Below, piece after piece: positions 1 to 21,609 of a stretch of 35,011 nt of DNA; within the stretch, counting starts at the first letter, position 1; each line of letters begins with the position of its first letter. The notes below the pieces were generated by a model. That model had not been told where the DNA came from. It ran no database searches and saw only the letters and a list, made by a program, of their open reading frames with translations. Origin of the DNA: Gammaproteobacteria bacterium (GTDB taxonomy: Bacteria > Pseudomonadota > Gammaproteobacteria > Pseudomonadales > Azotimanducaceae). The stretch is from NCBI GenBank assembly GCA_009843635.1, contig VYDB01000030.1, forward strand, positions 1 through 35,011, in the 5' to 3' direction. The position numbers were made by a program, and so were the translations under genes.

Positions 1-122
1 CCATGCCCCCCCACTCAGGCGTCAGCCAAAGGCGCGGGGGTGCGAGTAGTTACCTCACTGCTAGGCTGGGGTGGCTGGGTGAATCCGGCACGACCGTGGC
101 GAGCCCCTTGCACAAAGATGTC

Positions 123-152
123 GGGTTCCGCGCCAGTTAAGGCGCGGAACCC
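123..152 (+). other. Perfect 12-bp hairpin just upstream of the tRNA
   Basis: Bases 123-134 pair without mismatch with 141-152 around a 6-base AGTTAA loop, and the tRNA begins five bases later. Neither strand has a T-run after the stem, so it is not a convincing intrinsic terminator. It could be a processing signal in the tRNA precursor or the end of a transcript from outside the window. Confidence 0.5.
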
Positions 153-156
153 CAAG

Positions 157-258
157 GCCTCAGTGGCGGAACTGGTAGACGCAGGGGATTCGCACTCCCC
201 CGGAATGTTGCAGCAGAGTCTGCACGCCGTGCGGGTTCGACTCCCGCCTGGGGCACCA
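157..258 (+). tRNA. Class II tRNA with Leu-type body and CGC anticodon
   Basis: All arms can be folded: a 7-bp acceptor stem (157-163 with 248-254, one G-U pair), a 3-bp D stem (166-168 with 180-182) with a loop typical of tRNA-Leu, an anticodon stem (184-188 with 196-200), a T arm (231-247), discriminator A255 and encoded CCA at 256-258. The anticodon loop TTCGCAC has U33 and A37, which places CGC at 191-193. CGC would read the alanine codon GCG, whereas the body, discriminator A and long variable arm are those of leucine tRNA. The variable region (201-230) is 30 bases, longer than usual, and contains an inner 5-bp hairpin (209-213 with 220-224). It may be a leucine tRNA with an altered anticodon, a missense tRNA or a decayed gene. 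That it is a class II tRNA is certain; the decoding is not. Confidence 0.85.
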
Positions 259-449
259 GCCCGCCTCAACGCGGCGAAGACCGGGCAGGCCAACCCAGCC
301 TCCCAAGCGCTCGTGGAGGGAACCATGCCACCAACCGGAGCGGCGGTCAACAGCATCCGATCACACGAGCGCATCGACTCCAAGCGGGTACCCCGGACCG
401 AGGGCATAACGAACCGACACGCACCGAAGGTGCGCGTTCGCGCCCTCGC

Positions 450-466
450 ACGGCGCGAAGCGCCGT
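450..466. other. Small GC hairpin after the solute-binding protein gene
   Basis: ACGGCGC (450-456) and GCGCCGT (460-466) form a 7-bp stem with a 3-base loop, six bases past the stop codon of the minus-strand gene at 472. There is no T-run, so it may stabilise the transcript end rather than terminate it. The rest of 259-471 shows no gene. Confidence 0.3.
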
Positions 467-471
467 TCCCC

Positions 472-1347
472 TCACTCCGAGGCGGTTTCGTCAAAGGATG
501 CCGCACACCCCCGTTGCGCCGACCCTGAAGCCGCCAGCCCCTCCCAGTCCCGGGTTTCGAACCAGTAATGCCACCGTTCCGCCAACCATCCGTTGACCCG
601 GTAGTGCCGCACCCAACTGTCCAGGTAGTTCAGCGCATCCCCATCGCTTCTGCGCATCGCAATCGCCTGGGGAAGCTGGTCGAAGAGGGTATCGAAGGGG
701 CGATGCAACACATTCGGATGCTCGTGGATCGAGCGCGCCGCCATAACCTCATCGGCGGCGGTCGCGTGGGCCGCCCCGCTGGTGACGGCGTCAACCACCT
801 CGGCGTCGGTGTCGAAGGACAGCAGCATCGCCTCCGGAAACTCCCGCTTGACCAACGCCTCCGCAGTGGTGCCGCGGCGGGCGGCGAAGGTCACGTCAGC
901 GCGGTTGAAGTCCTCGACGCTGGCGAATCCGGGCGTGAGCCCGACGTTGGCGACGATGGCGGTGCCAAATTCCGAGTAGGGCACCGAGAAGTTGACCAGC
1001 AGGCTGCGCGCCGGCGTGATGGACATGCCGCTGACGATGACGTCGAACCGCCCATCGACCAGCGCTGGGATGATGTGTTGCCAATTCATGCGCACGAACT
1101 CGACGCGCACGCCGATGTCCTCAGCGAGCCGGCGGGCGAGGTCGATCTCGTAGCCGATCAGGTCGCCGCTGCGGTCGCACATGATCCAAGGCTCGAACAT
1201 GCCGACCCCGACCCTCAGCAGGGCCCGGAACCGCACGTGCTCGATCAACCCCGGCTCCCACCAGATTCGCTGGGCGGTTGCCGGGCCCGGCGCCAGCGGC
1301 AGTGCCAGCACCGCCAGGGCGATGGCCGTGTGCAGAAACCGCCTCAC
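472..1347 (-). CDS. Extracellular solute-binding protein, family 3 (amino-acid type)
   Basis: A 291-residue protein with a clear signal peptide (about residues 1-25, hydrophobic core then an Ala-X-Ala site). The mature part follows the bacterial family 3 solute-binding pattern: an early LRVGVG strand, then the stretch 'GYEIDLARRLAEDIGVRVEFV', where GYEIDLA is the family signature, followed by a 'W..IIPAL..GRFDVI.SGMSIT' segment and a later 'RRGTTAEALV' loop. It should bind an amino acid or similar small ligand in the periplasm. No ABC permease or ATPase gene lies beside it, so it is an orphan here; it could serve a transporter elsewhere or act as a sensory or enzymatic relative. The start is GTG at 1347. 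The last 25 or so residues are rich in Ala and Ser and may not be conserved. Confidence 0.85.
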   Translation of the reverse strand: MRRFLHTAIALAVLALPLAPGPATAQRIWWEPGLIEHVRFRALLRVGVGMFEPWIMCDRSGDLIGYEIDLARRLAEDIGVRVEFVRMNWQHIIPALVDGRFDVIVSGMSITPARSLLVNFSVPYSEFGTAIVANVGLTPGFASVEDFNRADVTFAARRGTTAEALVKREFPEAMLLSFDTDAEVVDAVTSGAAHATAADEVMAARSIHEHPNVLHRPFDTLFDQLPQAIAMRRSDGDALNYLDSWVRHYRVNGWLAERWHYWFETRDWEGLAASGSAQRGCAASFDETASE

Positions 1348-2299: not shown

Positions 2300-3769
2300 C
2301 TATTGCGCCATCCACTGCACCGGACGGCGCGGCTCTCCGTCCTTTATGACCCATTCCAGCTCACGGAGCGCGGAGATGCTCTTAAGCGGATCACCCCGCA
2401 CAACGATCAGGTCGGCGCGCTTGCCGACCTCGACGGTGCCGACCAGATCCTCGATGCCCATCATGCGCGCGGGCGTCACGGTGGCGGCACGGAGCACTTC
2501 GGCCGGCGTCATGCCCGCCTCGGCCATAAGCTCCATCTCCCGCAGCGCCGTCGGCCCGTGGAACATGTTCGGCATGTGCGGCCATCCGCCGCTGTCCGTT
2601 CCCATGGCGATGGGAACGCCGGCTTCGTGGTGCAGCATGAGGTTTTCCTGAAGGTTGCGGACCAAGGACTGCATTCTGCCTTCGGTGAGGTACATGTCCC
2701 CCCACCAACCCGCCAACCACTCGGGCATGTCAGGCGCGACGAGCAGGATGAACCGCTTGAAGTACAGATCCCACACCATTGGATCGCGCGCCGTTTCCCG
2801 CTCAACGGCGGGCACCGTCAGGCGCACCATGGGCGCATCGAGCAGGTCGGGCCGGTAGCGCATGGTGAAGGATTCGTAGATGTACAGCGTCGGAATGACG
2901 TGCATGTTGGCGCGACGCATCCGGTCCAGCAGTGCACCGCTTGGCCTGTCCCCTACCAAGTGCGTCAGTGCGTGCGCGCTGAGCCCGAACGCGATATTGA
3001 CGCCACGGTGGTCATCGACGTGCACATAGATCGGGCGCCCATGGTCTGCCGCGCGCTGCCGAATCACGGCGAGCATCTGCGGCGAGTGCGTGTCGTAGAT
3101 GTCGATCGGCGAGCCGTGGCCGTGCGTTGCGGCGACCTTTACGCCGACCAGATCCTCGATGCCCCCGTATTCGCGATACAGCGCGTCGACGTCGTCCGGC
3201 GTGGCTGACGCGCGCCAACGTGGCGCCCAGTATTCCGAGAGCGCCGCGCCATCCATGTAGCCGCCCGGATTGTGAAACGTGGGGCCGAGCGCCATCACCC
3301 GCGGGCCGAGGCCCCCAGCGGCCAAGTACGCCCGAATCTCGCGCAGCGCTTCCGATGCAATGGCGGCATCGAGCACCGTCGTCACGCCATTGGCCACGTG
3401 CGCCCGCAGATGGCGATGCATGAGCGCCCGACGGGCATCCGCGTTGTCCTGGCGGTGCACGGCCCCCGGGACAGCCTGGAAGTGCACGTGGCTGTCGATG
3501 AGGCCGGGCAGCACCGCCATGCCTTGCGCATCGAGCAACCGCGCATCCGGCTGCGGGGGACCGCCGATGGACACGATGACGCCATCGCGGACGTTGATCG
3601 ACGTGCGTCTGGGCGGCGCGCCGGTGCCGTCGATGAGCGAGGCGTTGATGATGGCGAGAGCGTTGCCACTCACTGCCGGATTGTCGGCGGGCTCCGCTGT
3701 GGCGCCTACTACAGCGAATGCCGCTGCAATGGCAGTCAACAAGCGCACATTAACCACGACCGTCTTCAC
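2300..3769 (-). CDS. Exported metal-dependent amidohydrolase (imidazolonepropionase/prolidase-like)
   Basis: A 489-residue protein with a signal peptide (about 1-25). Motifs of the amidohydrolase TIM-barrel superfamily appear in order: the 'GLIDSHVHF' metal motif (His94 and His96), 'GVKV' with Lys211 as the likely carbamylated ligand, metal histidines near 250 and 270, and 'GTDSGG' with catalytic Asp392. The C-terminal 'GTVEVGKRADLIVV.GDPL' closes the small beta domain. Such periplasmic members hydrolyse cyclic amides, acyl-peptides or other amide bonds; the substrate cannot be told. Length is usual for the family. GTG start at 3769. It heads a minus-strand pair with the split-barrel gene at 1782. 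Confidence 0.9.
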   Translation of the reverse strand: MKTVVVNVRLLTAIAAAFAVVGATAEPADNPAVSGNALAIINASLIDGTGAPPRRTSINVRDGVIVSIGGPPQPDARLLDAQGMAVLPGLIDSHVHFQAVPGAVHRQDNADARRALMHRHLRAHVANGVTTVLDAAIASEALREIRAYLAAGGLGPRVMALGPTFHNPGGYMDGAALSEYWAPRWRASATPDDVDALYREYGGIEDLVGVKVAATHGHGSPIDIYDTHSPQMLAVIRQRAADHGRPIYVHVDDHRGVNIAFGLSAHALTHLVGDRPSGALLDRMRRANMHVIPTLYIYESFTMRYRPDLLDAPMVRLTVPAVERETARDPMVWDLYFKRFILLVAPDMPEWLAGWWGDMYLTEGRMQSLVRNLQENLMLHHEAGVPIAMGTDSGGWPHMPNMFHGPTALREMELMAEAGMTPAEVLRAATVTPARMMGIEDLVGTVEVGKRADLIVVRGDPLKSISALRELEWVIKDGEPRRPVQWMAQ

Positions 3770-10906: not shown

Positions 10907-11130
10907 CTATCGAACCCGCTCGCGGCCTACATGCAAATAATTCTCTCGAAAAACGGCCAAAAGTGCAATTTTTGTGCATAAATTTTCGGGAAATCTTCAA
11001 AAACCAAGCGCTTGGGCTAAAGCGGCACTGGACCGAACTCCCAATGTTCAATCGGATGCATCTGACAATGTCCTCGGCCACAGCCCGCCAGCAGCGTTAG
11101 ACTGTGCGTTGTTCCACAAGGAAACGTCCG

Positions 11131-11745
11131 ATGCCACGAATCACACTGTACGAGCATGCGCCCACACGGTCCGCCCGCTGCCGGTGGACGCTCCTGGAGG
11201 CGGGTCTCGACTTCGACTCGGTCGGCAACCCGTCCGACTTCATCGATAGCGAGGAGTTTGCCGCCATCCATCCGCTCAGCAAGCTGCCCGCCGCGGTGAT
11301 CGACGGACGAGCCCTCTTCGAGTCCGCGGCGATCTCCACTGTCGTCGCTGATCTGGTGCCGGAACGCGAACTGGTCGCCAAACCCGGCACTTGGGCGCGG
11401 GCGCTGCACGACCAGTGGGTCTCCTTCGCGCTGACCGAGATGGAGCCGTGGCTGTGGAGTTCGGAGATCAACAGCGTCGAAATCCTGATGCCAAAGGAGC
11501 AGCAGGTTCCAGCCATCGTCCCCCAGAACAACGAACTGTTCCGCCGCAGCGCCGCCGTGCTCGATGCGGCGCTCGACCGAACGGACTACCTGATCGAAAA
11601 CCGCTTCACCGTCACCGACATCATCGTTGGCTACACGGTTAGCTGGGGCGAATCCGACGGGCTGCTGCACGGTTTCGAGAACCTCGGCGCCTACCTCGAC
11701 CGCCTGCGCACGCGGGAGCATTGCACGCTCCCGCGGCCGGGCTAG
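11131..11745 (+). CDS. Glutathione S-transferase family protein (copy 1)
   Basis: A 204-residue protein starting at ATG 11131, with AAGGAAA upstream. Residues 1-75 are a thioredoxin-like GST N-terminal domain: 'MPRITLYEHAPTRSARCRW', then 'HPLSKLPAAVIDGRALFESAAI', in which the Leu-Pro and the Glu-Ser form the usual glutathione site. The C-terminal helical domain includes 'DYLIENRFTVTDIIVGYTV', the N-capping motif of GSTs. The substrate is unknown. The copy at 13734 gives an identical protein. Its stop codon overlaps a fragment of a VOC gene. Confidence 0.85.
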   Translation: MPRITLYEHAPTRSARCRWTLLEAGLDFDSVGNPSDFIDSEEFAAIHPLSKLPAAVIDGRALFESAAISTVVADLVPERELVAKPGTWARALHDQWVSFALTEMEPWLWSSEINSVEILMPKEQQVPAIVPQNNELFRRSAAVLDAALDRTDYLIENRFTVTDIIVGYTVSWGESDGLLHGFENLGAYLDRLRTREHCTLPRPG

Positions 11746-11855
11746 GCGCGAGTGATTTGCCGTTCGAGATCGAGCAAGTGGGCACTCTCGTGATGTTCAG
11801 GGACACGGAGGGGAACACGGTGGGCGCGATGCAGTACCTGCCCGGCGTTCGCTAG
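11745..11855 (+). pseudogene. C-terminal remnant of a VOC (glyoxalase-like) protein, copy 1
   Basis: Directly after the GST gene, 36 codons read as the end of a vicinal-oxygen-chelate family protein: a strand with 'IEQVGTLVMFRDTEGNTVG' and then 'AMQYLPGVR' before TAG. The 'FRD..GN..G..QY' end is typical of this family. No start or earlier part is present, so it is a stump, probably left by the recombination that brought the GST gene here. Confidence 0.65.
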
Positions 11856-11928
11856 CACCAGACGAGCGCTGTTCAACGATTCATCTCGCCTCTTCAGCCA
11901 GTCTGCCCACAGTCCGCTCCAGCGTCGG

Positions 11929-12450
11929 TCAATCGGCACTGTCCGGTTCGTCGTCCCAGTAGCCGCAGGCGGTGTTGGCGCGGCCGATGAAGTGGAAGCC
12001 TTCCGCATCCGTCCCGAAGTCGGACACCGCCATCAGCTTGCCGCTGTCGGGATACTCCAAGAGGTCGTTGGTGGCGACGGAAGAGATCGCGAGGTACTTG
12101 AGCGGCGTTGCGCCGGTGTTGGTCAGCTTGTGGGCGAACTCGGCACGGCCGCGCGGTGCGCCCAGGACGTCGCCGGCCCGGACTTCGTAGGTGGCATCGC
12201 CGAATCGGTAGCGGCCTTGGCCCTCGAGAATGACGAACATCTCGTCCACCCCGTGGTGGACGTGGAAGGGGCAGCCGGACTTGCCTGGCGGAACCTCGCT
12301 GTATGTCGCCCCGAGCTTGGTCAGGCCGATGGCGTCTGCCACCCGGTTGTCTGCGGAGGCGTAGCTTTCGCCCCGTGAGAATGACTTGAGGGGGAGGGCG
12401 GAGAGGGTCACGACTGGTGTTATGGCCTTTTCGTTGCTGTCAGTGCTCAT
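11929..12450 (-). CDS. Cupin-domain protein (copy 1)
   Basis: A 173-residue single-cupin protein starting at ATG 12450, which overlaps the stop of the truncated antitoxin gene (ATGA). The first cupin motif 'FHVHHGVDEMFVILEGQG' gives metal ligands His63, His65 and Glu70, and the second motif supplies His107. Such proteins bind a metal and act as small-molecule sensors, isomerases or dioxygenases; the function is not predictable here. The copy at 14532 is identical in protein sequence. Translation is probably coupled to the upstream 71-codon frame. Confidence 0.85.
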   Translation of the reverse strand: MSTDSNEKAITPVVTLSALPLKSFSRGESYASADNRVADAIGLTKLGATYSEVPPGKSGCPFHVHHGVDEMFVILEGQGRYRFGDATYEVRAGDVLGAPRGRAEFAHKLTNTGATPLKYLAISSVATNDLLEYPDSGKLMAVSDFGTDAEGFHFIGRANTACGYWDDEPDSAD

Positions 12451-12662
12451 GGTGTCTCTCTTTCCCGATTGCTGCGAAGCACGTCCTCGCGTTCCTGAAA
12501 GTCGATGGTTGCGTTGACATAGTCGCGGAGCAAAGACTTGCCTGTCTCCACGTCGCTGGCCAGAAGGCAATCGGCAGCTTCCTTGAGAAGCGCCTCGCGG
12601 AAGAACGGATCGCGCTGGAGCCGTTCTTGCACCGTCACCTTGATGTCTCGGGTTAGTGCCAT
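12447..12662 (-). pseudogene. N-terminal half of an addiction-module antidote (HTH) protein, copy 1
   Basis: A 71-codon frame starting at ATG 12662. Residues 1-55 ('MALTRDIKVTVQERLQRDPF', then 'ALLKEAADCLLASDVETGKS' and 'LLRDYVNATI') match the N-terminal half of the roughly 100-residue antidote proteins of HigA/XRE type found beside RelE-like toxins. In those, an HTH with 'LG.......SLMRML..SGNP.. NL' follows; here it is replaced by 'DFQEREDVLRSNRERETP' and a stop. The DNA-binding half and any toxin gene are missing. The frame remains open and overlaps the cupin start by four bases, so it may still be translated as a leader. Confidence 0.65.
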
Positions 12663-13650: not shown

Positions 13651-13733
13651 GCGTGGGCCGGATGGGTCAGATGGACACGGCCACAGCCCGCCGGCAGCGT
13701 TAGACTGTGCGTTGTTCCACAAGGAAACGTCCG

Positions 13734-14348
13734 ATGCCACGAATCACGCTGTATGAGCATGCGCCCACACGGTCCGCCCGCTGCCGGTGGACGCTCCTGG
13801 AGGCGGGTCTCGACTTCGACTCGGTCGGCAACCCGTCCGACTTCATCGATAGCGAGGAGTTTGCCGCCATCCATCCGCTCAGCAAGCTGCCCGCCGCGGT
13901 GATCGACGGACGAGCCCTCTTCGAGTCCGCGGCGATCTCCACTGTCGTCGCTGATCTGGTGCCGGAACGCGAACTGGTCGCCAAACCCGGCACTTGGGCG
14001 CGGGCGCTGCACGACCAGTGGGTCTCCTTCGCGCTGACCGAGATGGAGCCGTGGCTGTGGAGTTCGGAGATCAACAGCGTCGAAATCCTGATGCCAAAGG
14101 AGCAGCAGGTTCCAGCCATCGTCCCCCAGAACAACGAACTGTTCCGCCGCAGCGCCGCCGTGCTCGATGCGGCGCTCGACCGAACGGACTACCTGATCGA
14201 AAACCGCTTCACCGTCACCGACATCATCGTTGGCTACACGGTTAGCTGGGGCGAATCCGACGGGCTGCTGCACGGTTTCGAGAACCTCGGCGCCTACCTC
14301 GACCGCCTGCGCACGCGGGAGCATTGCACGCTCCCGCGGCCGGGCTAG
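13734..14348 (+). CDS. Glutathione S-transferase family protein (copy 2)
   Basis: A 204-residue GST identical in translation to the gene at 11131. At the DNA level two silent changes near the start separate them. It has the same AAGGAAA ribosome-binding site and the same VOC stump after it. Because both the gene and its upstream 55 bases are duplicated, both copies are probably expressed, doubling the dose. Confidence 0.85.
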   Translation: MPRITLYEHAPTRSARCRWTLLEAGLDFDSVGNPSDFIDSEEFAAIHPLSKLPAAVIDGRALFESAAISTVVADLVPERELVAKPGTWARALHDQWVSFALTEMEPWLWSSEINSVEILMPKEQQVPAIVPQNNELFRRSAAVLDAALDRTDYLIENRFTVTDIIVGYTVSWGESDGLLHGFENLGAYLDRLRTREHCTLPRPG

Positions 14349-14458
14349 GCGCGAGTGATTTGCCGTTCGAGATCGAGCAAGTGGGCACTCTCGTGATGTT
14401 CAGGGACACGGAGGGGAACACGGTGGGCGCGATGCAGTACCTGCCCGGCGTTCGCTAG
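14348..14458 (+). pseudogene. C-terminal remnant of a VOC protein, copy 2
   Basis: Same 36-codon stump as at 11745-11855, with the same boundaries. The truncation therefore happened before the block was duplicated. Confidence 0.65.
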
Positions 14459-14531
14459 CACCAGACGAGCGCTGTTCAACGATTCATCTCGCCTCTTCAG
14501 CCAGTCTGCCCACAGTCCGCTCCAGCGTCGG

Positions 14532-15053
14532 TCAATCGGCACTGTCCGGTTCGTCGTCCCAGTAGCCGCAGGCGGTGTTGGCGCGGCCGATGAAGTGGAA
14601 GCCTTCCGCATCCGTCCCGAAGTCGGACACCGCCATCAGCTTGCCGCTGTCGGGATACTCCAAGAGGTCGTTGGTGGCGACGGAAGAGATCGCGAGGTAC
14701 TTGAGCGGCGTTGCGCCGGTGTTGGTCAGCTTGTGGGCGAACTCGGCACGGCCGCGCGGTGCGCCCAGGACGTCGCCGGCCCGGACTTCGTAGGTGGCAT
14801 CGCCGAATCGGTAGCGGCCTTGGCCCTCGAGAATGACGAACATCTCGTCCACCCCGTGGTGGACGTGGAAGGGGCAGCCGGACTTGCCTGGCGGAACCTC
14901 GCTGTATGTCGCCCCGAGCTTGGTCAGGCCGATGGCGTCTGCCACCCGGTTGTCTGCGGAGGCGTAGCTTTCGCCCCGTGAGAATGACTTGAGGGGGAGG
15001 GCGGAGAGGGTCACGACTGGTGTTATGGCCTTTTCGTTGCTGTCAGTGCTCAT
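14532..15053 (-). CDS. Cupin-domain protein (copy 2)
   Basis: A 173-residue cupin identical in translation to the one at 11929, with metal ligands His63, His65, Glu70 and His107 and the same four-base overlap with the upstream truncated antidote frame. It lies fully inside the part of the repeat where I saw no base differences. Confidence 0.85.
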   Translation of the reverse strand: MSTDSNEKAITPVVTLSALPLKSFSRGESYASADNRVADAIGLTKLGATYSEVPPGKSGCPFHVHHGVDEMFVILEGQGRYRFGDATYEVRAGDVLGAPRGRAEFAHKLTNTGATPLKYLAISSVATNDLLEYPDSGKLMAVSDFGTDAEGFHFIGRANTACGYWDDEPDSAD

Positions 15054-15265
15054 GGTGTCTCTCTTTCCCGATTGCTGCGAAGCACGTCCTCGCGTTCCTG
15101 AAAGTCGATGGTTGCGTTGACATAGTCGCGGAGCAAAGACTTGCCTGTCTCCACGTCGCTGGCCAGAAGGCAATTGGCTGCCTCCTTGAGAAGCGCATTG
15201 CGGAAGAACGGATCGCGCTGGAGCCGTTCTCGCACCGTCACCTTGAAATCTTGGGTTAATGCCAT
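15050..15265 (-). pseudogene. N-terminal half of an addiction-module antidote, copy 2
   Basis: A 71-codon frame as at 12447-12662, ending at the same place in 'RERETP'. It differs from copy 1 at five residues (5, 7, 12, 23 and 31), all within the first 31, and is identical afterwards. The change from diverged to identical DNA therefore lies inside this frame, near 15,172. As in copy 1, the HTH half is lost and its stop overlaps the cupin start. Confidence 0.65.
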
Positions 15266-17442: not shown

Positions 17443-20382
17443 CTACTGCGCCGCAAAGTTCTCGTCGAAGTCATCAAAACAAGCGACGATTTTCTTGCCG
17501 GGTTTACCAGGCGTATGGAGAGCTGGCGGCGCGGTACGACTTGAGAACCCTTCCGGCTGCATGAGGCATATCTTTCTGAAGTCACAGGCAGCACACTTAT
17601 CTTGCGAAGGACGCATCGGAAAGTCTTGCGCGACAATGCCCTCCACGGCCCATTCAATATTGGATATGGCTGCATCAAGCGCGGCGTCCGTGATTGGCAC
17701 TGGCACCCTTTGCCCATCTTTAAGCAGGTGAACAAAGCCCGCTTCAGTCACGTTTCCGAGGATATCGACGGCAGCCTTTGCGTAGAGCTGAACCTGTAGG
17801 GCAAGCTCGGTCCATTCCAAGGCCGAGTTCTCTTCAGGATTGTCACCACCCTCCATAGTTTTAAAGTCCACGACACAGGCATCGACAACGTTTCCTTGGT
17901 CGTCTTCCTTAATCATAAGGTCTATCGCTCCCGACACGACGGTCCCATTGGCGGGAATTTCGAACCGCGCTTCAAGCTGTCTGCTTTGAGCAAAGTCAGA
18001 AGCAAATCTCTCAACGTAGTCCCTGACTAGACTGGTCGCCCTATCCTTCGCACGCTCGTAGGGACCGGGGTTCTTGCTCGGATCGCGACTTGGAATCACA
18101 TGCTTCAAGTTGAAGGTATCTTCCGTGACTCTCTCCGCGTCAGCCTCGTTGGGAATCGCATTCGCAAACTCCTGATGAAGCTTCCCGATCGAAGCGTGAA
18201 CCGTCAATCCAAATCCAAATAAGTCGGGGATTGCCGGGCTGAAACCAAAGACCTTTCTGAACTGATAGTCCTTGGGACACCTCAGGTAGTATTTGATGTC
18301 CGAAAAGCTCGTTGGAAAATTGACCGCTTCAATTCTCTGCTGAGGTGGCTCACTCCCGTTTGAAGGGGGTGCAACTCCCGGACTAGTGGAAATAGCAGGA
18401 TCGTCAAGATGGCCAGCGAATGGCGACACTCGCATCGCACGTTTTCCACCAGGCACCTGTGCTGACCCAGTGACGTAAAGATACCTCTCGGCTCTCGTAA
18501 GCGCAGTGTAGAACAGCCGGGCCTCCTCGTCGCGGGTGGACTGGTAGGCTCCTCTCGATAACGACAAGTGCAGTAGTGGTTTAGGTATCCAGCCTGAATA
18601 CTGACTTCGGTTTTTTGGAAAACGCTGAGCTTCTACATCGACCACGAAAACGACCGGAAATTCAAGACCTTTCATCTTGTGCACAGTTGAAACTGTAACC
18701 GCGTTTGGTCGATTGAGGATTTCGCTTGAACTAGTGTCGTAGCCTTTCTCCGCAACCACCGAAAGGAAGTTCAGGATACTCTCGAAACGTCCCGTACTAT
18801 CCACGCTTGGGAACACAGTCTCCACATCCTGAATGATTTGACTGAACACCCCAAGATCCTGAACAATCGCGTCGTCGAATTTCGATTGAGCCAGCCCGAA
18901 GGCCTCTAGGAGATCAAAGACGAGGTTTTGGGGATACACCCGTCGTCTCGGTTGCCCAGGTGTGACTGGCGCATGAATCATCCGCCCCCAACCGGAAAAT
19001 ACCGTGGCGAGCATGGTGAAATTCGCGACCGGAAATGTGGACTGGACTTCTGATTTGAAAAACGCCGAAACAACCGCTCGATCTGGTGAACCGTTTCGCA
19101 AGAGTTCGAAAGCGCTTCGCATCACTGCTACTTGTGGCCGATCAAACAAACTCCCGCCGGCTTCCAAGCTAAAGTCAATTCCTCGCGCCGAAAGTGCGCT
19201 TGAATAGGCGACATGGCGTGGCGGATGATCGTTCGGTTCTGGCTGGCGCGTCGATCTCATTAGGATCGCGAAGTCAGATGGGGCTAGACCACGAACACGA
19301 CCATCGTCTTCTACGTACCTCGTTCCGATAAGCGCTTCAATTGTCTGGGCAACCCAGCTAGCCTCGTCGGCTCGATCATCAAACCACAGATTTCGAAATT
19401 CACTTGACTCAGTGGAGGGAACAGCTGACGGATTTTTCACGATCCGGTTAGCTCCCAGTTCGGCGTGTGCCATCGCGTCAGCGTTTTTCACGATCAGCTC
19501 CGTACTACGGTAGTTCGTGCCAATCGTATGAGCGCTCACAGCAGGAAACCTATCCTGGAATGTTTGAATTCGCGTAACGTCGGCACCCCGCCAGCCGTAT
19601 ATCGACTGGTCATCGTCACCGACAACCAGAAGCGAACCGCTGCTAGAGTGGAGTTGTTTTATCAGCTCGTCCTGAATTGGGTTGATGTCCTGATACTCGT
19701 CTACCAACAAATGCTGGACCTTGGATACTACATCAGTTGCGGTACCCGCTTTCATGACCTGGACTGCTAACCGTTGCATGAAGGAGAAGTCCAAAAATTC
19801 CCGTTTCAATAGTAGGTCGTTGAGTCCAGAGATGAAGGTGCCAAGTTCGGTATCATGAGCTGCCACATCAGGCAGCGAAAGCAACTCCTCGTTGTAGAGA
19901 TTCCAAGTCTGAGCGGCGCCAGTGATGGTTTCAAAATAATAGTTTCCGCGTGCTCGAGACCTCAATCGGTGTAATTCCAACGCCGGGTAGTTCTCGATAA
20001 GAAAGAGCTTTAGCCTGTTCTCGTCGAGAATCTCGAATTGTCGGTAGCGAGCGTCGATGTCACCCAAAATGTATTGACAGAATGAGTGAATCGTTCCGAT
20101 GAATATTCTACCGAGTAAATTTGGGTCAAGACCGCTTGCGGTTAGAGCCTCAGAAACTCGTAGCTTGATGGAGTCGGCAGCCTTTTCAGTGAATGTAAAC
20201 GCAACGACGCTCTCCGGGTCTACTCCGCGGTCCGCGATCAGCCACGCGATCCGATAAGCCAGCGTTCTTGATTTTCCCGATCCGGCGCAAGCTAGGGTAA
20301 GGACTTCACTCGCTGTGTCAGTTGCCGCCGCGAATTGCTGAGGATTCAGTTTTGCACGCAGTATTCTGTCAATGTTCGGCAT
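17443..20382 (-). CDS. UvrD-like helicase fused to a RecB/Cas4-like Fe-S nuclease
   Basis: A 979-residue protein. The N-terminal part has all superfamily 1A helicase motifs: 'ACAGSGKSRT' (Walker A, 33-38), 'VAFTFTEKAA', 'DEYQD' (228-232), 'GDDDQSIYGWRGA' (255-267), 'GTNYRST', 'VSTVHKMKGLEFPVVFV' and 'YTALTRAERYLYV'. After about residue 680 comes a PD-(D/E)XK nuclease of the RecB/Cas4 type: 'YYLRCPKDYQFRK', 'GAIDLMI', 'CVVDFKTM', 'QVQLYAKA' and 'DKCAACDFRKIC'. One early and three late cysteines would hold a 4Fe-4S cluster. It should unwind and cut DNA in an ATP-dependent way. It lies 19 bases behind the m5C methyltransferase gene and is surely its operon partner. GC content is visibly lower than in the core genes. 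Confidence 0.9.
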   Translation of the reverse strand: MPNIDRILRAKLNPQQFAAATDTASEVLTLACAGSGKSRTLAYRIAWLIADRGVDPESVVAFTFTEKAADSIKLRVSEALTASGLDPNLLGRIFIGTIHSFCQYILGDIDARYRQFEILDENRLKLFLIENYPALELHRLRSRARGNYYFETITGAAQTWNLYNEELLSLPDVAAHDTELGTFISGLNDLLLKREFLDFSFMQRLAVQVMKAGTATDVVSKVQHLLVDEYQDINPIQDELIKQLHSSSGSLLVVGDDDQSIYGWRGADVTRIQTFQDRFPAVSAHTIGTNYRSTELIVKNADAMAHAELGANRIVKNPSAVPSTESSEFRNLWFDDRADEASWVAQTIEALIGTRYVEDDGRVRGLAPSDFAILMRSTRQPEPNDHPPRHVAYSSALSARGIDFSLEAGGSLFDRPQVAVMRSAFELLRNGSPDRAVVSAFFKSEVQSTFPVANFTMLATVFSGWGRMIHAPVTPGQPRRRVYPQNLVFDLLEAFGLAQSKFDDAIVQDLGVFSQIIQDVETVFPSVDSTGRFESILNFLSVVAEKGYDTSSSEILNRPNAVTVSTVHKMKGLEFPVVFVVDVEAQRFPKNRSQYSGWIPKPLLHLSLSRGAYQSTRDEEARLFYTALTRAERYLYVTGSAQVPGGKRAMRVSPFAGHLDDPAISTSPGVAPPSNGSEPPQQRIEAVNFPTSFSDIKYYLRCPKDYQFRKVFGFSPAIPDLFGFGLTVHASIGKLHQEFANAIPNEADAERVTEDTFNLKHVIPSRDPSKNPGPYERAKDRATSLVRDYVERFASDFAQSRQLEARFEIPANGTVVSGAIDLMIKEDDQGNVVDACVVDFKTMEGGDNPEENSALEWTELALQVQLYAKAAVDILGNVTEAGFVHLLKDGQRVPVPITDAALDAAISNIEWAVEGIVAQDFPMRPSQDKCAACDFRKICLMQPEGFSSRTAPPALHTPGKPGKKIVACFDDFDENFAAQ

Positions 20383-20401
20383 GTTCTACTAGTCTTGGGA
20401 T

Positions 20402-21424
20402 CTAGAGGCGGTCTAGGGAGTACGCAATTTCTCGTGCGTGGTGTTCTGCAAACTTTGGGGGAAAGGCATTGCCGATCATCTGGGCGGCCGGATATCTTCC
20501 ACGTTCCAAGCTGAAGTGGTACCCGGACGGAAAACCTTGGAGCAAAGCAGCCTCGCGAAGCGTTATCGGTCTATTCTGTTCGGGATGAAGAAAGCGACCC
20601 TTTGACGGATTGATGCAGCCACCGGTGATTGTGGGGCTTTGGGATGCCCAACTCATTCGCCCGTAGACATCTTTGAAACCGTCGACTTTGGCGTGGCAAT
20701 CAAGCTTCAGATTTTCGGGCAAGGCTGCTCGGCTGCCACCGTTCAATGGAATGGCCTCGATTATTTGTTCGACGCGACGAGACCGTTTGGCTGCATAGTC
20801 GTGAAGTGGGTCGCTGCCTCGTCCAGGCTCCGGCATGCGCCCAATGGTTTGGTTGACAGTTCGGCGGCGCTTTTTCTCTTTGGGAAAGGTTGGTCCCGCG
20901 CCTCGTAGCGCAATCAGCACCATTCGGCGGCGCCGCTGAGGGACACCGAAGTCACGAGCGTTCAAGACTCTAGCTTCAGACTGGTAGCCGGCGGTGCTTA
21001 ACTGCTCTTGAATTGAGTCCAACCGGGTATCACCATACAGACCGGGGACGTTTTCCATCATTACGGCTTTGGGCTTCAGTTCTTTCACAAACCGCAAGAA
21101 ATCAAAGACAAGCTCGTTCTGCGGCTCATGGATTGCCACTTTTCCGTTCAGCGTTCTGAGAGTGGAGAAGCCTTGACACGGCGGACAGCCAGCAAGTAAG
21201 TCGAGTTCGCCAATTCTGAATCGAGCAGATTCTGCCAACGCGGTTGGCTTTACGGCTTTGATGTCTTTCTCAATGAGTCTAACGCGCGGGTGGTTTTTGC
21301 GATAAGTCGAGGCTGCGAGAGCATTTGACTCGATCGCACCGATAACCGAGAACCCGGCACGCTTTAGGCCGACGGTGAGCCCGCCCGGCCCGGCAAACAA
21401 GTCAATGGCTAGTCTTCTACTCAT
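20402..21424 (-). CDS. DNA (cytosine-5-)-methyltransferase
   Basis: A 340-residue m5C methyltransferase from ATG 21424. Motifs in order: I 'IDLFAGPGGLTVGL' (AdoMet), IV 'LLAGCPPCQGFS' with nucleophile Cys83, VI 'MMENVPGL' (Glu124), VIII 'VPQRRRRMVLIALR', then a target-recognition region of about 90 residues, IX 'REAALLQGFP' and X 'QMIGNAFPP'. It methylates cytosine in an unknown short site. The only other gene in its unit is the helicase-nuclease 19 bases downstream, with no ordinary restriction enzyme gene. It starts about 90 bases from the 3' end of tRNA-Ser, in AT-rich DNA likely to hold its promoter. Confidence 0.92.
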   Translation of the reverse strand: MSRRLAIDLFAGPGGLTVGLKRAGFSVIGAIESNALAASTYRKNHPRVRLIEKDIKAVKPTALAESARFRIGELDLLAGCPPCQGFSTLRTLNGKVAIHEPQNELVFDFLRFVKELKPKAVMMENVPGLYGDTRLDSIQEQLSTAGYQSEARVLNARDFGVPQRRRRMVLIALRGAGPTFPKEKKRRRTVNQTIGRMPEPGRGSDPLHDYAAKRSRRVEQIIEAIPLNGGSRAALPENLKLDCHAKVDGFKDVYGRMSWASQSPTITGGCINPSKGRFLHPEQNRPITLREAALLQGFPSGYHFSLERGRYPAAQMIGNAFPPKFAEHHAREIAYSLDRL

Positions 21425-21516
21425 TGGTCAGCAACTCTCGACGGACTCAGACTTTTCGCTGTTGTGGTACAAGGTTTGGTGAGAGTCATATAACTTATTG
21501 TTTTTGCTCTATAATT

Positions 21517-21609
21517 TGGCGGAGAGGGAGGGATTCGAACCCTCGATGAGCTATCAACCCATACTCCCTTAGCAGGGGAGCGCCTTCAGCCGCTCGGCCA
21601 CCTCTCCGG
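21517..21609 (-). tRNA. tRNA-Ser (anticodon GCU)
   Basis: A 93-base class II tRNA on the minus strand. The acceptor stem GGAGAGG/CCTCTCC is perfect, with discriminator G and encoded CCA. The anticodon loop contains GCT, which reads AGC/AGU serine codons, and the variable arm is of the usual serine length. Its 3' end faces the methyltransferase-helicase unit, a common place for integration of islands. Confidence 0.97.

Follow-up and report, generated by a model that had tools for sequence, protein, structure and literature searches.

A family of leucine-bodied class II tRNA genes with mostly alanine-type anticodons, set in a larger conserved unit, in the Azotimanducaceae

We report that a tRNA gene combining the body of a leucine tRNA with the alanine-type anticodon CGC, found near the end of a contig from an uncultured gammaproteobacterium, belongs to a conserved and duplicated family. 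Judging from the sequences compared here, we give close to an even chance to the reading that this family encodes a tRNA that would be charged by LeuRS, would be able to read alanine codons and would arise from a structured precursor.

The window, which is the whole stretch of DNA analysed (35,011 nucleotides), is an entire contig (G000:C108) of a MAG-like draft genome of 4.49 Mb that comprises 152 contigs and is 96.46% complete; 156 bp precede the tRNA gene. Positions 157-258 of the forward strand form a complete class II tRNA with A73, an encoded CCA and a Leu-type body. The features of the locus are given below.

123..152, + strand: 5' GC-rich hairpin with a 12-bp stem (123-134/141-152) and a loop at 135-140, 4 bases upstream of tRNA position 1
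157..255, + strand: class II tRNA body of the Leu type, tRNA positions 1-73 (Rfam RF00005, 49.0 bits)
191..193, + strand: anticodon CGC in the 7-nt loop TTCGCAC at 189-195 (sequence and alignment)
201..230, + strand: variable arm of 30 nt (alignments)
256..258, + strand: encoded CCA (sequence)
259..351, + strand: conserved domain 3' of the tRNA, which carries GGCCA at 288-292 and closes with GGTCAAC at 345-351 (motif counts and pairwise identity)

The match to RF00005 (E 1.1e-7) exceeds the gathering threshold of 29, and our own covariance model R1 scored the window copy, itself used in building that model, at 122 bits. The acceptor stem has 7 bp including one T-G pair, a D-arm is present, and the anticodon stem (184-188/196-200) consists of 5 uninterrupted base pairs. 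In the outer parts of the variable arm, C201 is position 44, GG at 202-203 is matched with CC at 227-228, and G229 is followed by T230, which is position 48. The inner stem is formed by TGCAG (209-213) and CTGCA (220-224) around a variable loop (214-219). The T-arm occupies 231-247 and A73 lies at 255. The complete cloverleaf with discriminator A and encoded CCA, and the 30-base variable arm with its inner hairpin, had been described in the earlier note from the letters alone and are borne out by these results. Many of the matches listed for a wide sequence pattern look by eye like the group I intron tRNA-Leu(UAA). This assignment was rejected for the window copy on account of its uninterrupted 5-bp stem and 7-nt loop.

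ARAGORN missed the tRNA at 157-258; its sole report in the window was a tRNA-Ser(GCT) at 21517-21607. When 19 family loci were supplied to the program, it recovered 4 of their 22 family copies, which exposes an annotation gap. The tRNA-Ser(GCT) adjoins genes for a C5-cytosine DNA methylase and a UvrD helicase-PD-(D/E)XK nuclease, and the region they occupy (17443-21607) resembles a defence island at a tRNA. The window also contains a repeated block, 11104-12570 and 13707-15173, the copies being 2603 bp apart. Each carries a GST-like ORF (11104-11745 and 13707-14348) and a cupin ORF (11929-12570 and 14532-15173) with the same translations.

We compared the window copy with ten tRNAs of the host genome, where the ordinary leucine tRNAs carry the anticodons caa, cag, gag, taa and tag and the ordinary alanine tRNAs ggc and tgc. 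The 5' half scores 24-30 against the five leucine tRNAs and 18-22 against the tRNAs for Ala, Ser and Tyr. Leucine is set apart less cleanly by the last 28 nt at the 3' end, which have 18-26 identities to Leu, 16-17 to Ala, 17-19 to Ser and 18 to Tyr. All 23 aligned family copies have U8, A14, A15, G19, U48, A58 and A73, while G18, A20a, U54 and U55 are found in 22 and C56 in 21. The pairs C2-G71 and C3-G70 are present in every aligned copy, and so are U33 and A37, as in a decoding loop. According to PMC9976931, leucine identity in E. coli rests on A73, A15-U48, G18G19, A20a and contacts between the D and T loops, the anticodon is not involved, U8:A14 is crucial for the Aquifex LeuRS, and the long variable arm is characteristic of tRNA-Leu without being an identity element. 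Each position of the bacterial leucine set (A73, A14, A15-U48, G18G19, A20a) is kept in 22 or 23 of the 23 copies, and the 30-nt arm of the window copy agrees with the long arm of a tRNA-Leu. Since the leucine-identity nucleotides are present, charging by LeuRS is plausible. Together with the CGC at 191-193 and the likeness to host leucine tRNAs, they substantiate the proposal, made from the sequence at first sight, of a leucine body with a foreign anticodon. Charging by AlaRS through G3:U70 was ruled out, as position 3 pairs as C3-G70 throughout. A dedicated second LeuRS was likewise ruled out: among 13 genomes, 10 of them with the element, 12 hold one full-length LeuRS above the cut-off. The exception, G002, has a second LeuRS that is cut by a contig end, and the contamination of this genome is 6%. 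A single LeuRS per genome suggests that the usual enzyme would do the charging.

The distribution of the family was examined by covariance searches with models built from 10 copies (R1) and from 23 copies (R2). With R2, 26 copies (matches of at least 94 nt) were found in 16 of 206 genomes of the host family and in three of its 37 genera, namely in six of the nine genomes of the host genus (g1), nine genomes of g50 and one of g15. With the E cut-offs of 3e-12 or 1e-12 and the strict filters applied, these searches may have overlooked relatives at a greater distance. The presence of the same gene in relatives, proposed in the earlier note as a check, is therefore confirmed, though three of the nine members of the host genus (G001, G003 and G006, two of them single-contig assemblies) gave no match with R2, which indicates that the element is dispensable. 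A DNA search of 38 relatives revealed two more copies in the host genome, on C34 (GGC) and C31 (GGC, decayed), and others in four further g1 members; one additional copy (G002:C173) is cut by a contig end. The remaining matches within the family are all 82-88 nt, the length of ordinary tRNA-Leu, and the eight inspected are tRNA-Leu(TAA). Outside the host genome, no long form was found in 390 genomes of the order and 369 of the class, drawn evenly from larger groups, where all matches were 82-88 nt and were judged by length only.

Named genomes were covered by a pattern scan. Among the matches listed with a title, the long-arm form occurs only in Gammaproteobacteria MAGs. Those listed are RHO1_bin_53, RHO1_bin_72, RHO2_bin_33, RHO3_bin_63, IRC4_bin_23, CAR3_bin_15 and SB0665_bin_27, along with Candidatus Azophilus lithoversatilis peze_46, which NCBI places in Pseudomonadales, Azotimanducaceae. 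We take RHO, IRC and CAR in these names to denote marine sponge hosts. The scan gave at least three further long-arm matches (L260, L267 and L279). A strongly diverged paralog lies at 1970-2063 of L333 (G209:C10:61469-61562); it has CGC, a Leu-like body and the 5' hairpin, and GGCCA is absent from the 70 nt after its position 73. Short-arm Leu-bodied tRNAs with alanine anticodons were also seen elsewhere among the matches listed (two in L178, and L216, L222, L247, L254 and L305). Their hosts are Azospirillum cavernae (TGC, two close together), an actinomycetote (Actinomycetota, GGC), two Gemmatimonadetes (CGC) and a member of the Desulfovibrionaceae (TGC), with one more on a viral contig (TGC, judged by eye). 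These are possibly independent cases.

Structural conservation was examined in the 23-copy alignment. In this alignment, which was fitted to the model and hence leans towards the structure, 98.3% of cells are paired and 14 of 28 pairs show compensatory change; none of 500 shuffles reached any of five measures. For every one of the five pairs of the inner variable-arm stem, at least one copy shows two-sided change. When pairs were counted in just the 10 close copies, covariation was not in excess. Disagreement between anticodon and isotype can mark decaying repeats, as stated in the tRNAscan-SE 2.0 paper (PMC8450103); the covariation speaks against such a reading here. The CCA follows position 73 in 25 of the 26 copies; the exception is G008:C72, with CCT instead.

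Conservation reaches beyond the tRNA and takes in a GC-rich hairpin just upstream of it as well as a 3' domain with GGCCA. The 45 nt upstream of the 26 copies have a mean fold energy of -23.3 kcal/mol, compared to -11.4 for 37 ordinary host tRNAs, and 22 copies fall below the ordinary-leader minimum of -19.4 kcal/mol; the control leaders come from one genome and the copies from 16. The longest perfect upstream stem is 7-12 bp in 24 copies and 5 in the other two, and the stem sequences vary between copies and clades. Within 70 nt after position 73, GGCCA is found in 22 of the 24 copies with enough sequence and beside 2 of the 37 ordinary tRNAs. Mean pairwise identity among nine g1 copies is 0.73 for the 5' hairpin, 0.90 for the tRNA and 0.78 for the 3' domain, and falls to 0.29 in the next 9 columns. 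Among six copies at the g50 locus, the corresponding values are 0.87, 0.84 and 0.83, with 0.30 beyond. The 5' extent differs among g1 copies: the alignable region starts near the hairpin in some and roughly 165 nt upstream in others. In the nine g1 genomes searched, the sequence of neither flank occurred apart from the tRNA. A further conserved stretch, reaching from about 165 nt to about 45 nt before the tRNA, contains TTTTCCTACAGA in seven of seven aligned g1 copies (L051, L055, L057, L058, L059, L061 and L062).

Several further possibilities were considered. A peptide starting at the ATG of the 3' domain was rejected, as this ATG is present by eye in eight of nine g1 copies and in only four of six at the g50 locus. 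Membership of another Rfam family was rejected because the only matches were below gathering scores. A scan of window positions 1-500 gave no sigma-70-like promoter match, and inspection by eye for a pseudoknot in which the anticodon loop would pair with the 3' domain revealed no covarying partner.

The anticodons of the 26 copies are CGC in 13, GGC in nine, GGA in two and CAC in two; 22 are thus of the alanine type and four (GGA or CAC) are not. A leucine anticodon, which would have told against the mismatch had it turned up in close relatives, is present in none. On a tree built without the anticodon, from a short alignment and without support values, position 34 changed six times, each time between C and G. 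Under equal rates, the chance of six C/G-only changes is roughly (1/3)^6. Exchange between paralogs could be an alternative source of this pattern, and position 34 ranks among the more variable columns of the alignment. Two changes were counted at position 35 and two at position 36; with 34 of the 99 columns free of any change, neither position stands out for its conservation. Because they are no better conserved than many columns, we weighted the decoding reading down and the regulatory alternative discussed below up.

We explored the possibility that GCG has been reassigned to leucine by aligning ETF-QO to 2gmh. Alanine stands opposite 8 of 17 GCG codons and leucine opposite none; for 30 GCC codons, alanine stands opposite 12 and leucine opposite one. 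Reassignment was rejected on this one protein, since GCG still faces alanine. GCG makes up 262 of 777 alanine codons in 16 ORFs, and with the codon this common, strong decoding by a leucine-charged tRNA would be costly.

Five g50 genomes (G206, G209, G211, G213 and G214) hold a copy at one orthologous locus with homologous flanks, and the flanks of G215 are in common with G203 upstream and with G204 downstream. In g1, a locus beside a Type ISP restriction-modification gene is common to G000 and G004 and partly to G002 and G007. Tandem copies are present in G203 (three) and G214 (two). An Lhr-like helicase gene and the gene downstream of it abut in G007 and are separated in G008 by 482 bp that contain the element; no target duplication was seen by eye at this G008 junction. 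Some copies are broken: G000:C31 has lost an anticodon-stem base, G002:C236 has an insertion in the acceptor stem and G203:C207:38-134 has lost T-loop bases. The insertion in the G002:C236 copy (L059, about 3097-3153) is MITE-like, measures some 55 bp and has inverted ends that match imperfectly. The suggestion in the earlier note that the tRNA might be decayed accordingly fails for the window copy and holds for sister copies such as G000:C31. Searches of phages and plasmids gave no blastn match at E 1e-5, and 13 matches of a viral pattern scan were by eye intron-type, short-arm or incomplete. With no such blastn match and no long-arm form in the viral scan, a phage or plasmid origin was rejected. 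No transposase was recognised among flanking ORFs, a weak test in which 20 were translated and two of them run against Pfam.

We propose that transcription probably gives an RNA of about 230 nt that exceeds the tRNA on both sides, with the order 5' hairpin, tRNA and 3' structured domain, and that its processing would yield a tRNA with an encoded CCA. The ordinary cellular LeuRS, an enzyme that in E. coli needs no anticodon, would charge this tRNA with leucine. In competition with normal tRNA-Ala, the ribosome would then put leucine at some alanine codons, GCG for the CGC copies and GCC or GCU for the GGC copies. The flanking structures may limit or condition production of the tRNA, since unrestricted Ala-to-Leu mistranslation should be harmful. 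What we observed is the sequence and its structure, how conserved and how widespread it is, where the unit ends on the 3' side, the leucine-identity nucleotides, the alanine-type anticodon and, in one protein, GCG codons that still align with alanine; transcription, processing, charging, decoding and regulation are predicted. It is favoured by the covariation, the leucine-identity nucleotides, U33 and A37, the confinement of position 34 to C or G, the single LeuRS, the recurrence of CGC and the 5' hairpin in the divergent G209:C10 copy and the orthologous g50 locus in five genomes. Against it stand the four non-alanine anticodons, the ordinary conservation of positions 35-36, the broken copies, the dispensability of the element, the abundance of GCG, the lack of a sigma-70-like promoter match in window positions 1-500 and the one copy without an encoded CCA. 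The fullest form of the proposal is rather unlikely. It would make the element a new RNA family of bacteria: a class II tRNA with an Ala anticodon, charged by LeuRS and carried in a hairpin-flanked precursor of about 230 nt, would act as a switchable Ala-to-Leu mistranslation device, and duplication and insertion would spread it within a single family of uncultured Gammaproteobacteria.

A regulatory role, also suggested in the earlier note, stays a candidate because conserved structure flanks the tRNA. The tRNA may be one structural part of a larger regulatory RNA with no role in translation, an explanation we take seriously while leaning against it. Both flanks are nearly as conserved as the tRNA, similarity falls after GGTCAAY, ordinary tRNAs seldom have the hairpin (0 of 37, against 22 of 26 copies) or GGCCA (2 of 37, against 22 of 24) next to them, and the anticodon positions 35-36 are not unusually conserved. 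There is also a precedent in the tRNAOther of Bacillus cereus, which, according to PMC3399842, sits in longer RNAs extended at both ends, flanks a genomic island and is said not to act in translation. However, the leucine-identity nucleotides, U33 and A37 are kept in this family while the stems drift, and 22 of 26 anticodons are of the alanine type, none of which a pure scaffold would require. In addition, all copies but one of the 26 encode the CCA. The kept translation features speak for a tRNA that LeuRS would charge and that would pair with alanine codons, and the flanks for an RNA that is longer and perhaps under control; the two views may be true together.

It is improbable, in our judgement, that the element is a tRNA-bearing repeat which duplicates or transposes and so spreads, more or less as a tRNA-derived SINE would if it were bacterial, and in which the anticodon would merely be inherited. 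Such a repeat would agree with several copies per genome in differing neighbourhoods and with differing 5' extents, with the tandem copies in G203 and G214, the 482-bp insert in G008 and the decayed copies. It is at odds with the copies that occupy orthologous positions in g50 and at a single g1 locus and with the compensatory evolution of the fold; nor did we see, within the scope given above, a target duplication at G008, a phage or plasmid match or a transposase. The origin of the window in a MAG-like draft of 152 contigs, with the gene starting 157 bp from a contig end, would allow for an error of sequencing or assembly, or for a solitary tRNA-Leu in decay whose anticodon has mutated. This is very improbable indeed, being contradicted by the covariation and by 26 copies in 16 genomes.

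The family of leucine-bodied tRNAs was compared with known systems. The nev-tRNAs of nematodes, cited as a parallel in the earlier note, are a fair one in mechanism: like the family, they are conserved in genomes and combine a variable arm with non-leucine anticodons. According to PMC4300185, those with the anticodons CCC and UAU are leucylated in vitro and no mistranslation was detected in C. elegans. Of the three features that define this nematode class, the variable arm and the non-leucine anticodon are present here and leucylation is predicted; unlike the eukaryotic nev-tRNAs, the family is bacterial, has mostly alanine anticodons and is flanked by RNA structure. Bacterial parallels are tRNAProX and the allo-tRNAs. 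The tRNAProX of Streptomyces and Kitasatospora (ProA, ProN and ProT) likewise have dual identity, with body and anticodon of different amino acids, ProA bearing an alanine anticodon. They are described in PMC11415595 with a Pro body, A33, A34 and a dedicated ProRSx. In contrast, the present family has a Leu body, is of class II, has U33 and C or G at position 34, shows no apparent dedicated LeuRS and has conserved flanking structure. Membership was ruled out by the body, U33, C/G34 and the one full-length LeuRS in 12 of 13 genomes. Allo-tRNAs are also bacterial, have missense potential and are charged by body rather than anticodon, and one overlaps a transposon-related frame. They mostly have serine identity and have an 8/4 or 9/3 acceptor branch (PMC7609411), and membership was ruled out by the 7/5 fold of our alignment and the leucine identity. 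The tRNAOther resembles the family as a tRNA-like element whose RNA extends on both sides, the flanks of the family being known from sequence; unlike it, the family keeps translation features and its copies are dispersed. By analogy, the family may work like tRNAProX, allo-tRNAs and nev-tRNAs while falling outside the first two classes. No description of a Leu-bodied bacterial tRNA family with alanine anticodons was found among the matches listed in the open-licence literature.

Natural tRNAs with mismatched body and anticodon are uncommon, and whether their mistranslation is selected for is an open question. This family adds a bacterial example with a Leu body, in which most anticodons are those of alanine, the covariation is deep and further RNA structure is conserved. 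If the decoding reading is true, leucine might sometimes be put where alanine is written.
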